Source of the DNA: Pseudoxanthomonas sp.
GTDB taxonomy: Bacteria; Pseudomonadota; Gammaproteobacteria; Xanthomonadales; Xanthomonadaceae
Length of the DNA: 32,565 nucleotides
Assembly (NCBI RefSeq): GCF_024710765.1
Contig: NZ_JANJUE010000120.1
Span: forward strand, 1 to 32,565
Reading direction: 5' to 3'
The position numbers and the translations under genes are program-made. Position 1 is the stretch's first letter. Every line of letters starts with the position of its first letter. Positions 6,553 through 13,079 of the stretch are shown in pieces. The notes under the pieces were generated by a model, which was given only the letters and a program-made list of their open reading frames with translations, did no database searches and was not told the origin of the DNA.

Positions 6553-8574
6553 CTACCTCGCCACGAAGCGGATCGCCTGGCCGCCACCAGGCGCGAGCCT
6601 GAGTTCCAGCGTATCGGCCGCGCCGACCTCGCGTTCCTCGATGACGATGTCCTCGCGTGCGCCCTTCCAGTCTGCCTTGGGACCGTCGCGGTAAATCTGC
6701 GCGGTGTAGCGGCGGCCGGGATCAAGGAATGACAACGGAGCCTTCAGCGTGCGTGGCTGCTCGTCGGTGATCGCGCCCAGGTACCAGTTGTCGCCATGGC
6801 GATCCTTGCGCGCGATGGTCACGTAGTCGCCGACCTCGCCGTTGAGCACGCGGGTGTCTTCCCAGTCCACCGGCACGTCCTTGATGAACTGGAACGGGCC
6901 CGGGTTGGCCTCGTAGTTTTCCAGCAGGTCCGCGGCCATCTGGATCGGGCTGTAGATGACCACGTACAGCGCCAGCTGCTTGGCCCAGGTGGTGGCCACG
7001 CCATCGGGCGAGCGGGTCTTCATGCCGAAGATGCCGGGGGTGAAATCCATCGGGCCCGCCAGCAGGCGGGTGAACACCAGCATGGCTTCGTGCTCGGGCG
7101 GATTGCCGGGCTGGCCCCAGGCGTTGTACTCCATGCCTCGCGCGCCCTCGCGCGAGATCCAGTTGGGATAGGTGCGGCGCAGGCCGGTGTCCTTGATCGG
7201 CTCGTGGGCGTTGATGGCAATGTGTCGCCGGGCGGCTTCGGTCACCACCTTCAGGTGATGGCGGGCCATGTCCTGGCTCTCGTGCCAGGCGTAGTGGACC
7301 GTGCCGTCGCCGCCGATCACCTTGGCCTGGCCGGCGTCGGAGACATAGCCGGTCTTGACCGCGGGCACGCCGACCCGTTGGTACAGGTCGAACGCCGCGC
7401 CCATCTGCGACTCGTAGTGGGCGGCGTTGGCGGAAGTCTCGTGGTGGCCGATCAGTACCACGCCTTTGGATTTCGCATACGCGCTGAGCTTTTCCAGATC
7501 GAAGTCGGGATACGAGCGGGTGAAGCTGAAGTCCTCGCCGTTGCCGAACCAGTCGCCATCCCAGCCGATGTTCCAGCCTTCGACCAGCACCCCGCCGAAC
7601 CCGTGCTTCGCGGCGAAGTCGATGTGCTTGGTCACGTTCTCGTTGGTGGCGCCGTGGCGTGGTCCGGAGGCCCAGGTCCGGGTGTCCAGGTGCATTTCCC
7701 ACCACACGCCGACGTACTTCATCGGCTTGACCCACGACACGTCGCCCAGCACGTTGGGTTCGTTGAGGTTGAGGATCAGGGAAGAGGTCACCAGACCACC
7801 GGCGTCGTCGGCGATCTGCACGGTGCGCCAGGGCGTGTTGAACGGCGCTTCGCGGGTCACCTTGGCGCCGTCGATGCCCGGCGTCAGCAGCGCCTTCAGC
7901 CGGCGTCCTTCCACGCGGGTGAGGTTCATGCCGGAATAGTCGACCAGCGCGGCCTCGTGGATCGACAGATGGGTGCCGTCGGCCAGCCTGAAGGTGATCG
8001 GCGTCTGCGCGTCGCCGACTTCCTCCACCGGGGTGCGTTGGTACAGGTACTCCTCGCGGTTCCATTCGCCAGCCGGAATCCACCAGGCGGTGGCGTCGCC
8101 GGCGAGGGCGAATTCGGTCAGCTCCTCGCGGATCTTCACCATCGGCAGGCCATCCTGGCGGGGAAATTCGTAGCGGAAGCCCAGGCCGTCGTCGTATACG
8201 CGGAACACCAGGTCCAGGTGTCGGCGCGGCCCGGCATTCTCGGCCAAGGTCACCCGCAGTTCGTTGTAGTGGTTGCGGATGCGGCGGCGCTCGCCCCAGG
8301 GCTGTTCCCAGGTCTCGTCGAACGCGCGCGTGCGCGGTGTGGTCACCGCGATGGCGCGATCCAGCTTGGGCGTGTCGAGCAGCAGGAAACCCAGCCGCGA
8401 GGGCGCCAGCAGCGGCTTGCCGTCGCGCTGCACGGTGTAGGTCGGGCGGCCGTCGGGATCGGCGTCCAGTTCCACCACGATGCGGCCGTCAGGCGAGGCA
8501 ACGCGCGCGGCGGGCGCCGCGACCGCGGCCAGGGGAAGGCCCAGGACGGCCAGTGCGAACAGTCGAATCAGCAT
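6553..8574 (-). CDS. Glycoside hydrolase family 97 protein, probable exported alpha-glucosidase
   Basis: A 673-residue exported enzyme of GH97, the family of Bacteroides SusB, which hydrolyses alpha-glucosidic (some members alpha-galactosidic) bonds. The start at 8574 gives a clean signal peptide (MLIRLFALAVLGLPLAAVAA). An ATG 12 codons upstream is possible but buries it. The N-terminal beta-sandwich runs to about residue 270 (VASPDGRIVVELDAD, GLGFRYEFP). The (beta/alpha)8 barrel follows (GVWWEMH, VEGWNIGWDGDW, GHHETSANAAHYE), then a C-terminal beta domain. Glutamates at 458 (NAHEPIKDTG), 476 and 482 (RGMEYNAW) have exactly the spacing I recall for SusB E508, E526 and E532, which are base, calcium ligand and acid. 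That points to the inverting subgroup. The gene lies 42 bases after the DUF4105 gene and may be co-transcribed with it. No susC/D-like genes are adjacent. Confidence 0.93.
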   Translation of the reverse strand: MLIRLFALAVLGLPLAAVAAPAARVASPDGRIVVELDADPDGRPTYTVQRDGKPLLAPSRLGFLLLDTPKLDRAIAVTTPRTRAFDETWEQPWGERRRIRNHYNELRVTLAENAGPRRHLDLVFRVYDDGLGFRYEFPRQDGLPMVKIREELTEFALAGDATAWWIPAGEWNREEYLYQRTPVEEVGDAQTPITFRLADGTHLSIHEAALVDYSGMNLTRVEGRRLKALLTPGIDGAKVTREAPFNTPWRTVQIADDAGGLVTSSLILNLNEPNVLGDVSWVKPMKYVGVWWEMHLDTRTWASGPRHGATNENVTKHIDFAAKHGFGGVLVEGWNIGWDGDWFGNGEDFSFTRSYPDFDLEKLSAYAKSKGVVLIGHHETSANAAHYESQMGAAFDLYQRVGVPAVKTGYVSDAGQAKVIGGDGTVHYAWHESQDMARHHLKVVTEAARRHIAINAHEPIKDTGLRRTYPNWISREGARGMEYNAWGQPGNPPEHEAMLVFTRLLAGPMDFTPGIFGMKTRSPDGVATTWAKQLALYVVIYSPIQMAADLLENYEANPGPFQFIKDVPVDWEDTRVLNGEVGDYVTIARKDRHGDNWYLGAITDEQPRTLKAPLSFLDPGRRYTAQIYRDGPKADWKGAREDIVIEEREVGAADTLELRLAPGGGQAIRFVAR

Positions 8575-8616
8575 GCGGGCCCTGCGTGGATGCGGTGGGA
8601 AAGGCCGCATCCTGCG

Positions 8617-9792
8617 TCAGCCGGCGTGAGGCGGCCGTTTGAATACGTATGCGAGCGCCAGGTGGATGGGCAGCAGCAGGGCGACCCAGGACTGGTTGTA
8701 CTGGTAGCCGAACGCGAACGGCAGCCACTGTACGAACCAGGCGAACAGCGCGCAAAGCGCGACGGCGGTCGGCACGCCGCGGAACAGCCGGCCCGGATTG
8801 CGGCGGCGCAGCACGGCGATTGCGCCGGGCAGCAGCAGCAGGCAGAGCGGATTGAGCAGCAGCAGGTTGTGGTTGCGCCAGGCGGCCCAGTGTTCGCTGA
8901 AGCCCCACAGGTACACCAGCAAACCGCCCGCGATCGCGCACAGCAGCCAGAACGGCAGCGCCAGGGCGGCGATCACGCGCGGATGCCGACGTCCGACCAG
9001 AGCGATTGCGACGGCCACCGCCAGTCCGGCGATCAGCCAGGGCCACCAGCGTCGCGGCGCCTCGGGCGGCTCGGCGGCGATCCGGTGTGGCAGCAACTCG
9101 GCTTCGGCCTGCACCAGCGGCCGGCCGGCGGCGTTCTTCGCCTCGCGCAGGCTATCGGCCAGGCGCATCGGGATGAAACCTTCCTCCCAGCGCGACATCG
9201 GCAGGTCCGACGCCGGTCCCAGGCCGACATCGAAGCCCAGCCACATCCAGGTCGCCGGCGAAGCCAACCGCACGCTTTCGCTGCGATAGGTGTTGCCGCG
9301 GGAACGGCCGGCCAACTGCGGCTTCAGCGCGCCGCCCATCGCCGCGTCCAGCGCGTCGCGCACCTGGGTCGAGCAGTTGGCGGTGAAGTAGTCGTAGCGG
9401 TAGCGCGCGTTTTCCGGCCGCGCCCGCACGGCCAGGCTGTCGGCCAGCGCCTGCGCCTGTTCCGGCGGCAGGTCGAGCCATTGCAGCCGCACCCCGCGGC
9501 CGCTGTCGCGGTACTGGGCCAGATCCTGTTCCAGCGGCAGGGCGACCAGGTAGTACTGCATCACCCCGCGGGCGAAGTTGCCGACGAAATCCGATTCGCC
9601 CGGATCGAAGTAGCCGAAGTTGTACGAGGTCGCGGCGCCGGTCGCCGGATCCGCGATCACGATGGCGTTGTGGCCGAAGCGTTCGAAGAACACCTCCCCC
9701 GGCTGCATGGTCGCCACCGCGACGCGCGGCGCGGCGAAGGCCGATGCCGCCAGCAGCCACAGCGCGGCGATCAGGAGCAGGCGCTGCAGCAC
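8617..9792 (-). CDS. DUF4105 (Lnb N-terminal domain) membrane protein in the lnt position
   Basis: A 391-residue protein with a signal peptide (MLQRLLLIAALWLLAASAFA) and a periplasmic domain of about 220 residues. It ends in about five hydrophobic segments from residue 245 onward. The periplasmic part matches DUF4105, now called the Lnb N-terminal domain. VFFERFGHNAIVI carries the conserved His, and YRYDYFTANCSTQVRDALDAA carries the conserved Cys; together they would be the thiol catalytic pair. Lnb of Bacteroides N-acylates lipoproteins. The start is a GTG at 9792, one base after the ybeX/corC stop (TGA-C-GTG), so translation is coupled. In E. coli the gene after ybeX is lnt. A lipoprotein-related role is an inference from domain plus position. 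The family is broad and many members are uncharacterised. Confidence 0.82.
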   Translation of the reverse strand: MLQRLLLIAALWLLAASAFAAPRVAVATMQPGEVFFERFGHNAIVIADPATGAATSYNFGYFDPGESDFVGNFARGVMQYYLVALPLEQDLAQYRDSGRGVRLQWLDLPPEQAQALADSLAVRARPENARYRYDYFTANCSTQVRDALDAAMGGALKPQLAGRSRGNTYRSESVRLASPATWMWLGFDVGLGPASDLPMSRWEEGFIPMRLADSLREAKNAAGRPLVQAEAELLPHRIAAEPPEAPRRWWPWLIAGLAVAVAIALVGRRHPRVIAALALPFWLLCAIAGGLLVYLWGFSEHWAAWRNHNLLLLNPLCLLLLPGAIAVLRRRNPGRLFRGVPTAVALCALFAWFVQWLPFAFGYQYNQSWVALLLPIHLALAYVFKRPPHAG

Positions 9793-9793
9793 G

Positions 9794-10657
9794 TCAGCTT
9801 TCGGCCAGGATGCCGACGTGGAAGGCATGCACGCGGCGCGCGTCGGCCTTGGCCACGCGAAAGGCGAACCGGCCCAGGGTGAGTTCCTCGCCGGCTTCGG
9901 GCAGGTGGCCGATGGCGGACGTGACCAGGCCGCCGATGGTGTCGTATTCGTCATCCGGGAAATCCGCGCCGAAGCGTTCGTTGAAGTCGGCGATCGGCGT
10001 CAGCGCGTCGACCACGTACTGGCCGTCGGCCTGCACCGCGATCAGCGAGGCGCCGTCCTCGGCTTCGTCATGTTCGTCGTCGATCTCGCCGACGATCTGT
10101 TCCAGCACGTCCTCGATGGTGACCACGCCGGCGACGCCGCCGTACTCGTCCACCACGATCGCCATGTGGTTGCGCGAGAGCCGGAATTCCTTGAGCAGCA
10201 GGTTGAGCTTCTTGGACTCCGGGATCAGCACCGCCGGGCGCAGCAGTTCGCGGATGCTGCCCGGGCCGTTGTCGGCGACCACGCCGCGCAACAGATCCTT
10301 GGCCAGCAGGATGCCGAGGATTTCGTCCTTGTTGTCGCCATGGACCGGGAAGCGCGAATGGCCGGATTCGACCACCAGTTTCATCAGGTCGAGGAAGCGG
10401 CCATCCACCGGCAGGGAAATCATCTGCGCGCGGGGGACCATCACGTCGCCCACGGTCAGTTCGGCGACCGTCAGCGCGCCTTCCATCATCCGCAGGGTGT
10501 CACCGCCGATCAGGCCGTCGCTCTGCGCATCGCGCAGGATCGCGACCAGGTCTTCGCGGGAGGTGGGTTCGCCGGAAAACGCCGAACTCAGGCGTTCTAG
10601 CCAGCTGCGCCGTTTCTCGTGGTGCTCCGGCGCTTGGGTACTGTCGTCTTCTGACAT
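9794..10657 (-). CDS. ybeX: HlyC/CorC family CBS-domain protein (YbeX)
   Basis: A 287-residue cytoplasmic protein orthologous in context and length to E. coli YbeX/CorC (292). An acidic and basic N-terminal tail is followed by two CBS domains: VGDVMVPRAQMISLPVD at about residues 70-86, then HMAIVVDEYGGVAGVVTIEDVLEQIVGEI. The C-terminal CorC_HlyC (transporter-associated) domain follows (ADFNERFGADFPDDEYDTIGGLV). It has no membrane segment. YbeX has been linked to Mg2+/Co2+ resistance and, in more recent work, to ribosome metabolism together with YbeY and YbeZ. It lies in the phoH-ybeY run, separated from ybeY by one extra gene, and its stop is one base before the next start. A short GC hairpin (10672-10688) precedes its start. 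Confidence 0.94.
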   Translation of the reverse strand: MSEDDSTQAPEHHEKRRSWLERLSSAFSGEPTSREDLVAILRDAQSDGLIGGDTLRMMEGALTVAELTVGDVMVPRAQMISLPVDGRFLDLMKLVVESGHSRFPVHGDNKDEILGILLAKDLLRGVVADNGPGSIRELLRPAVLIPESKKLNLLLKEFRLSRNHMAIVVDEYGGVAGVVTIEDVLEQIVGEIDDEHDEAEDGASLIAVQADGQYVVDALTPIADFNERFGADFPDDEYDTIGGLVTSAIGHLPEAGEELTLGRFAFRVAKADARRVHAFHVGILAES

Positions 10658-10720: not shown

Positions 10721-11305
10721 TCAGCCGCCGGCGGCCGGCTCGGCCGGCTCTTCCTCAAGCGGATCAATGCTGTAGGTGCAGCCGACCAGCGTCTTGCCGG
10801 GGTGGGAGGTGACGTTGGAGACGTTCAGCACCAGCGAGCGGACCAGGGTCGCGCCGGTGGCCGGGTCGCGCATTTCCTCGCTGACCAGTTCCTTGCCGAA
10901 CATGGCCTTCTCCGGGGTATCGACCGCCGTTTCCAGTTCCAGTTGGCGGGCCAGCGGACGCGGGTCCGGCAGGTCCAGCACCGCCATCACGCTGGAGCCG
11001 GCGAAGGCGATGCGATCGCTGGAATGGCCGAACACCGTCACCGGCTCGCCGAGCGCGTATTCGCTCAGGAACATGTTGCTCTGGGGCAGCGGGCGCCAGC
11101 CCAGCGACACCGCCTTGAGCGGCTCCTGCAGCGCGGTCGCCAGCGCCATGAACTCCTCTGGCTGACCCTCGCAGCGGATCAGCCTGGCGATGTCGACCCT
11201 GTCCGGGGTCGATGCGGGCGCCGCATCCTCCCCCGTGCCGCGCGCGTGCGCGCCGGCCGCCAGCGTCAGCAGCAACAGGAGGGGAATGGAACGGGCAGGG
11301 AGCAT
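10721..11305 (-). CDS. Exported protein of unknown function between ybeY and ybeX
   Basis: A 194-residue protein with a typical signal peptide (MLPARSIPLLLLLTLAAGAHARG, cleavage near residue 21). The periplasmic remainder has two Cys (LIRCEGQPEE and VGCTYSID) that could form one disulfide, and an acidic, Ala/Pro-rich tail. It has no membrane anchor and no recognisable catalytic motif. The segment SEYALGEPVTVFGHSSDRIAFAGSS looks like a beta-rich fold. The ATG at 11305 is the only start giving the signal peptide. The gene lies in the same direction as its neighbours, 55 bases after ybeY and 63 before ybeX. I do not recognise the family; similar small exported proteins may be lineage-specific to xanthomonads. 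No function is proposed. Confidence 0.75.
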   Translation of the reverse strand: MLPARSIPLLLLLTLAAGAHARGTGEDAAPASTPDRVDIARLIRCEGQPEEFMALATALQEPLKAVSLGWRPLPQSNMFLSEYALGEPVTVFGHSSDRIAFAGSSVMAVLDLPDPRPLARQLELETAVDTPEKAMFGKELVSEEMRDPATGATLVRSLVLNVSNVTSHPGKTLVGCTYSIDPLEEEPAEPAAGG

Positions 11306-11360: not shown

Positions 11361-11845
11361 CTACTGCTCCGCGTAGGGATCGTCGATGCCGAGTTCGGCC
11401 AGGATCTCGCGTTCCAGCTGCTCCATGCACTCGGCTTCCTTGTCGTCCTCGTGGTCCCAGCCCAGCAGATGCAGGGTGCCGTGCACGGTGAGATGGGCGT
11501 AATGGGCGGCGAGCGTCTTCTTCTGTTCGCGCGCCTCGCGGGCCACCACCGGCGCGCAGATCACCAGATCGCCCAACAGCGGCATCTTCACGCCCTTGGG
11601 CAGCTTGACGCCCTCGGCCACGTCGGCCGGGAAACTCAGCACGTTGGTCGCGTAGTCGCGGCCGCGATAGTGGCGGTTGAGCGCGCGGCCTTCCTTGCTG
11701 TCGACGATGCGGATGGCCAAGTCGGCCTCGCGGATGCGCCCGCGCAGCGCCGCGGCCACCCATTTGCGGAAGCTCACCGCCGCGGGCAGGCCCGCGCGCG
11801 GCAGCGCGTAGCTGACCGAAACCTCCAGCCGTGTCGGACCCTGCG

Positions 11846-11849
<4 letters not shown>
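11361..11849 (-). CDS. ybeY: Endoribonuclease YbeY
   Basis: A 162-residue metalloprotein of the UPF0054/YbeY family, required for 16S rRNA 3'-end maturation and ribosome quality control. The zinc signature [11 protein letters not shown] gives His123, His127 and His133 (H-x3-H-x5-H). The conserved Arg-bearing stretch [14 protein letters not shown] lies in the first half. The length fits the family (E. coli 155). Its ATG overlaps the phoH stop as ATGA (11849-11846), as expected for this conserved operon. The C-terminus is acidic (GIDDPYAEQ). Confidence 0.97.
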
Positions 11850-12829
<980 letters not shown>

Positions 12830-13079
12830 GGATGAGGAGCGATGGCGGTGGCCTGACCGGGCGGACGGCCGGGAGGCGGCCGGCGGAGGCCGGACGGGCA
12901 GGCACAAGCGGAAATGGGGTCGGCCGGTCCTATCTGGAGCGGGCGCGCGGGATTTGCAAGCGGCAGATCAGCGGTTGGGCTGGATCACGGCGGCGTTCCT
13001 CGGCCGAGGTATCAGGCCGCGAAGGTTAAACCCGCACCCGGCACGACGCCAGCCGGCATGACCGTTCGTCGGCGGCGTA

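Follow-up and report, generated by a model that had tools for sequence, protein, structure and literature searches.

The stretch of DNA analysed here, referred to over its whole length of 32,565 nucleotides as the window, is contig NZ_JANJUE010000120.1 of a Pseudoxanthomonas sp. draft genome (RefSeq GCF_024710765.1; 443 contigs with a total of 4.63 Mb, completeness 99.88%, contamination 4.5%). Its minus strand carries, directly behind ybeX, an lnb-like gene whose 391-residue product we predict to be a lipoprotein N-acyltransferase of the Lnb type. The reading frame starts with GTG a single base (c) past the TGA of ybeX and ends at position 8617, so that frame and ybeX stop confirm the start described in an earlier note on this DNA. 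The interval that the note quoted for the gene, 8617-10657, does contain it but also takes in ybeX; the gene alone spans 8617-9792.

Two Pfam families are matched above their cut-offs, Lnb_N (PF13387) over residues 23-154 with 61.8 bits (cut-off 22.2) and, C-terminal to it, 5TMH_Lnb (PF25221) over residues 257-361 with 41.5 bits (cut-off 25.2). The sole NCBIfam family at E of 0.01 or below was NF051878, lipoprotein N-acyltransferase Lnb (E 1.8e-45, 155.5 bits, residues 21-336 on model positions 28-347 of 394), and it was likewise the only family for six relatives of the protein, at 148.7-190 bits. The domains of Lnt, LNT_N and CN_hydrolase, were both absent from the protein at E up to 1 (Pfam), as was any match to TIGR00546 at E up to 0.01 (NCBIfam). 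Among the matches listed, the closest named relative is from Pseudoxanthomonas beigongshangi, with 89% identity over residues 1-391.

For comparison, two sets of loci were assembled: 30 from a 5TMH_Lnb search, and 80 named loci, which are the best 80 of 546 relatives among the matches listed and are biased to close relatives (Xanthomonas, Stenotrophomonas, Pseudoxanthomonas, Lysobacter, Luteimonas and metagenome-assembled genomes; the Xanthomonas loci come from species other than X. campestris). The window protein and 25 of the 30 loci gave alignment A1 (26 sequences), the basis of a full-length Lnb profile of this order; the window protein and 59 of the named loci gave A2, from which two odd lengths and near-duplicates, judged by eye, were left out. 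The earlier note had read from the translation a DUF4105-type domain with a conserved His (FERFGHNA) and Cys (ANCSTQ), a signal peptide and a multi-helix membrane part at the C-terminus. The Lnb_N match agrees with the first of these, and no sequence among the 26 of A1, with identities down to 34%, or the 60 of A2 departs from His41 or Cys140. An N-terminal hydrophobic helix and the C-terminal helices are seen both in hydropathy and in an AlphaFold (AF2) model with a mean predicted local distance difference test (pLDDT) of 89.9 and a predicted template modelling (pTM) score of 0.85. The invariant positions of A1 also include R38, F39, G40, N139, T142, V144, R145 and D146 in the periplasmic part and H301, N307, N309, P315, Q364 and N366 in the membrane part. 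The motif NC[STA]T occurs in 79 of the 80 named loci; it is absent from L088, in which the aligned Cys140 is nevertheless retained in A2.

The positions of the two residues in the model (Table 1), with the Cys at the start of a helix and the His on a strand, would fit the usual catalytic layout. Compared with solved structures in VIA-align, model range 22-235 matched YiiX (2if6; Z 11.1, 160 residues, 3.9 Å) and range 18-237 matched TseH (6v98; Z 10.8, 152 residues, 3.3 Å), with a weaker match to H-REV107 (Z 6.2), against Z 7.3 for the best row of a helical bundle. Helical bundles fill the list for residues 255-391, and for this reason no fold is claimed for the membrane part, which in the model consists of helices 250-267, 271-298, 315-328, 335-355 and 367-383. 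Foldseek also ranked TseH first (probability 1.00, E 4.3e-3, TM score 0.44 by target length) and gave no match for the model at E up to 0.001; when solved structures were searched by sequence, the sole return was an unrelated one (E 1.1). As modelled, the periplasmic domain is a member of the permuted NlpC/P60 group, in which the His precedes the Cys in the sequence. YiiX, TseH and H-REV107 share the fold and this order of residues with the Lnb-like protein; their solved chains span the domain only, whereas the Lnb-like protein has the membrane bundle in addition. Passages of a 2026 paper (PMC12994826) place both lipid acyltransferases and phospholipases in the permuted group.

Table 1. Features of the lnb-like locus in the window (positions of the whole stretch; residue numbers are those of the Lnb-like protein)
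Feature	Position	Strand	Basis or remark
lnb-like gene (391-aa Lnb_N + 5TMH_Lnb protein, predicted lipoprotein N-acyltransferase)	8617..9792	-	Open reading frame, Pfam, NCBIfam
N-terminal signal/anchor helix, residues 1-21	9730..9792	-	Hydropathy peak at residues 6-24; model helix 2-18
Periplasmic permuted NlpC/P60-like predicted catalytic domain, residues 22-235	9088..9729	-	VIA-align; Lnb_N 23-154
Codon of predicted catalytic His41	9670..9672	-	Invariant in A1 and A2; on strand 37-47 (model)
Codon of predicted catalytic Cys140	9373..9375	-	Invariant in A1 and A2; first residue of helix 140-151 (model)
C-terminal membrane helix bundle, residues ~249-385	8638..9048	-	5TMH_Lnb 257-361; hydropathy; model helices
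ybeX (CBS + CorC_HlyC), directly upstream of the lnb-like gene	9794..10657	-	Pfam; ends with TGA
Small gene between ybeY and ybeX, no Pfam family	10721..11305	-	194 aa; none at E 0.001
ybeY (endoribonuclease)	11361..11849	-	Pfam YbeY (PF02130), 118.1 bits
phoH/ybeZ, start codon uncertain	11846..12907	-	Pfam PhoH (PF02562), 318.8 bits
GH97 glycosidase, 6 bases downstream of the lnb-like gene	6553..8610	-	

On the minus strand the genes thus run phoH, ybeY, small gene, ybeX, lnb-like gene, GH97 glycosidase. In E. coli the gene after ybeX is lnt, as the earlier note also states. The check proposed in the earlier note, whether ybeX and the DUF4105 gene stay together across the order, supports the note: all 30 loci of the 5TMH_Lnb search and all 80 named loci (110/110) have YbeX upstream of the gene and in the same orientation. 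With start codons set by script, the spacing of the two genes falls between -20 and +25 bases in 25 of the 30 and 77 of the 80 loci; it is larger in the remaining eight (44 to 428 bases), and 50 of the named loci have a 4-base overlap. Of the 80 named loci, some of them truncated at contig edges, 73 gave a match to YbeY and 70 to PhoH. Among 16 genomes with a divergent Lnb, YbeX is upstream in 15, one of which (L147) has about 0.5 kb between the two genes, and the sixteenth (G068) is truncated by the start of its contig, short of YbeX. Distances between Lnb proteins also follow those between the adjacent YbeX proteins, with r = 0.87 over 80 sequences (named locus L130 was omitted for a YbeX match shorter than 200 residues) and 0.22 as the best of 1000 permutations. 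This correlation is what would be expected of a gene passed on together with the one next to it, a resident of the locus rather than a recent import.

Two other neighbours differ in how widely they are kept. The 194-residue gene between ybeY and ybeX was matched in 61 of the 80 named loci. The GH97 glycosidase was matched in just 11 and is therefore a local neighbour.

The earlier note had suggested searching the complete genome for a canonical Lnt, and none was detected. LNT_N has no match anywhere in the Pseudoxanthomonas genome, with a profile that does match in 7 of the 14 genomes used as controls, E. coli included, and the best TIGR00546 match, at 34 bits, stays below the cut-off of 132.9; both Lnt models do match in control genomes of other phyla. 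Five CN_hydrolase matches were found in the genome, none of them joined by LNT_N. A 508-residue open frame on contig C83 proved a false lead, with CN_hydrolase only, and the weak TIGR00546 and the CN_hydrolase matches fall on it and on proteins of C56, C367, C2 and C54. From their sequence features we take the proteins on C83, C2 and C54 to be nitrilases, that on C56 to be NadE-like and that on C367 to be omega-amidase-like.

The same pattern was followed through the order. Pseudoxanthomonas, Xanthomonas and Stenotrophomonas belong to family Lysobacteraceae of order Lysobacterales in the NCBI taxonomy, Xanthomonadales being the older name of that order. The same 249 genomes, requested at a completeness of at least 90%, were searched four times. 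The full-length profile from A1 found Lnb in 246 of them and 5TMH_Lnb in 230 (215 above the cut-off), while LNT_N was found in 57 and TIGR00546 above its cut-off in 28; the cut-off was applied to TIGR00546 because at E of 0.001 or below 236 of the 249 genomes are listed, almost all of them owing to weak hits on other nitrilases. Lnb without LNT_N is the condition of 192 genomes, Lnt without Lnb that of three, and every genome has at least one of the two. Within the family of the window, represented by 79 genomes, Lnb is present in all 79 and LNT_N in 10. Nineteen genomes, those in which 5TMH_Lnb had no match, were considered as counter-examples and set aside, as 16 of them have Lnb by the full-length profile, a limit in the sensitivity of the Pfam model. 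In six of these 16 (G083, G130, G143, G109, G129 and G042) the Lnb recovered is split in two or is a fragment at the end of a contig.

A further explanation of the missing Lnt is that it is an artefact of assembly, the Lnb-like gene being a lineage-specific extra. Fragmentation into 443 contigs and 4.5% contamination would allow for this in the Pseudoxanthomonas draft, but among the 192 genomes with Lnb and no LNT_N are some assembled into one contig (G185 and G077, for example), and we regard an artefact as extremely unlikely.

The three genomes without Lnb (G006, G016 and G018) are the three best Lnt scorers of the order, at 298.5-304.6 bits with TIGR00546 against 209.3 for the next, and in each of them Lnt sits right behind YbeX (loci L017, L018 and L019). 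Locus L019, from G018, has a character of its own: other sampled genera of its family, f8, carry Lnb, and its YbeX is 28% identical to that of the window, versus 57-58% in L017 and L018, a pattern suggestive of replacement of the entire ybeX-lnt block.

A wider survey covered 232 genomes of the class Gammaproteobacteria, with the order-built A1 profile and up to seven first-look candidates per genome, a scheme that a more distant Lnb could escape. LNT_N was found in 217, and the 15 genomes without it comprise three of the family of the window and 12 others. The A1 profile matched in three genomes only, the same three. Outside the order, LNT_N was thus present in 217 of 229 genomes and an A1-type Lnb in none of the 229.

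We conclude that a lipoprotein N-acyltransferase of the Lnb type has probably taken the place of Lnt in the slot behind phoH, ybeY and ybeX across this order, including Xanthomonas, Stenotrophomonas, Lysobacter, Luteimonas and Pseudoxanthomonas. What is observed is the domain architecture, the invariant His and Cys, the predicted fold, the failure to detect Lnt in this genome, the presence of Lnb across the genomes sampled from the order and the complementary occupation of the slot by Lnb or Lnt. The swap spans the sampled order and is more than a single odd gene. The idea of the earlier note that a non-homologous enzyme occupies the lnt slot is therefore supported, for a function that is predicted, by the absence of Lnt from the genome and by the order-wide synteny.

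The reaction, its donor and acceptor and the acyl-enzyme step can be proposed by analogy with Bacteroides Lnb and the permuted NlpC/P60 acyltransferases. His41 would activate Cys140, and a membrane phospholipid would donate an acyl chain to this cysteine, forming a thioester. From there the chain would be handed on to the lipoprotein, whose lipid-modified N-terminal cysteine has a free alpha-amine after the action of Lgt and LspA; the product would be triacylated. These bacteria thus probably finish their lipoproteins with a different enzyme rather than leave them unfinished.

Five observations weigh against this replacement of Lnt by an Lnb-type enzyme. Firstly, the 155.5 bits of the window protein are far from the 550-bit equivalog cut-off of NF051878, so the NCBI rule would not name the protein Lnb, and we file it as an Lnb-type homologue and no Lnb equivalog. 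Secondly, 54 of the 249 order genomes match both Lnb and LNT_N, so mutual exclusion is not universal. The possibility raised in the earlier note, that the protein acts alongside an Lnt encoded elsewhere, thus fails for the Pseudoxanthomonas genome and holds for these 54. Nine Lnt-like proteins of such two-enzyme genomes were looked at closely and are read as additional paralogues. Loci L020 and L022-L028 have open frames of 821-938 residues with a C-terminal extension, and L021 has a protein of about 480 residues near the lnt cut-off (137.3 bits); both LNT_N and CN_hydrolase were verified for L024, and YbeX was found in none of the nine flanks of about 1.5 kb examined.

Thirdly, 12 of the 229 class genomes outside the order match neither LNT_N nor A1, so that loss of Lnt does occur without an Lnb of this type; ten of them are of 2.0 Mb or less. 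The larger two, G323 and G393 (2.7 and 3.5 Mb), may represent other replacements, true loss or incomplete drafts.

Fourthly, the genome encodes a second Lnb_N protein, on contig C330 (L014:2194-4146), which outscores the window protein on that family, with 90.7 against 61.8 bits. This opens the possibility that the N-acyltransferase is another protein, whether that on C330, a divergent Lnt that was missed or an enzyme of the Lit or LnsAB type, and that the ybeX-linked protein is an accessory. One CN_hydrolase match, the nitrilase on C54, is indeed cut by a contig end. Unlike the window protein, however, that on C330 combines Lnb_N with an N-terminal DUF7844, and it has no 5TMH_Lnb, no match to NF051878 and no YbeX in the surrounding stretch examined; an Lnt missed in most of the order is improbable as well, given that the Lnt models work in the controls and in 217 of the 232 class genomes. 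We consider it very unlikely that another protein carries the activity.

Fifthly, a single permease of the LolC/E family was found above its cut-off (460.3 bits), while its scores with the LolC and LolE models stay short of the respective cut-offs, which would be a LolF-like arrangement. Passages of a review (PMC11784454) link LolF with tolerance of lnt loss, and on that ground N-acylation need not be essential in this organism. The permease also favours an alternative in which the lipoproteins remain diacylated, without N-acylation, and the Lnb-like protein hydrolyses or remodels phospholipids or acylates some other substrate. The permuted NlpC/P60 relatives do include toxins that cleave lipids, in passages of the 2026 paper (PMC12994826), and passages of a 2023 paper (PMC10368991) report that Lnt was not found in X. 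campestris B100 and that diacyl anchors were therefore modelled. However, that inference rested on the missing Lnt and came before the 2024 report on Lnb. One would, moreover, not expect a lipid hydrolase to take turns with Lnt, which occupies the ybeX slot in the three of 249 genomes without Lnb, and both the membrane part and the catalytic part of the protein match Lnb models. Diacylated lipoproteins are thus an unlikely outcome. The preferred reading, that almost the whole order has swapped Lnt for a non-homologous enzyme of the Lnb type, that its lipoproteins are triacylated and that Xanthomonas and Stenotrophomonas are not 'diacyl' Gram-negatives, appears likely to us, and its prediction of triacyl anchors contradicts the diacyl inference printed for Xanthomonas campestris (PMC10368991).

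Lnb is the lipoprotein N-acyltransferase reported from Bacteroides (Armbruster et al. 2024, PNAS, as described in passages of papers citing it). The window protein resembles it in having Lnb_N followed by 5TMH_Lnb, in matching most of NF051878 and in the His and Cys of the superfamily. It differs in being gammaproteobacterial, in its slot behind ybeX, in its lower NF051878 score and in being known here from sequence and model. With Lnt it shares the operon slot, as seen in L017-L019, and, as predicted, the step of maturation; it has neither domain of that enzyme, and its chemistry would be of the papain-like Cys-His kind, whereas the nitrilase triad of Lnt is Glu-Lys-Cys.

The displacement of DUF4105 proteins by Lnt in three genomic contexts is described in passages of the 2026 paper (PMC12994826). 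Its main text does not contain 'ybeX', 'corC' or 'Xanthomon', and Stenotrophomonas occurs in a reference only; the Lnb in the ybeX slot of this order may well be one of the three contexts. In the titles, abstract openings and selected passages of the open-access literature, we found no description of Lnb in this order.

If the replacement is true, the gap in X. campestris would be closed and the third step of lipoprotein maturation restored. The range of Lnb would grow from the Bacteroidota to a large gammaproteobacterial order that includes plant pathogens and the opportunist Stenotrophomonas, and the locus would clearly exemplify how one operon slot can be filled by non-homologous enzymes. 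The finding also bears on signalling through Toll-like receptors, in which diacyl and triacyl lipoproteins are distinguished, and inhibitors directed at Lnt would be expected to miss these species.

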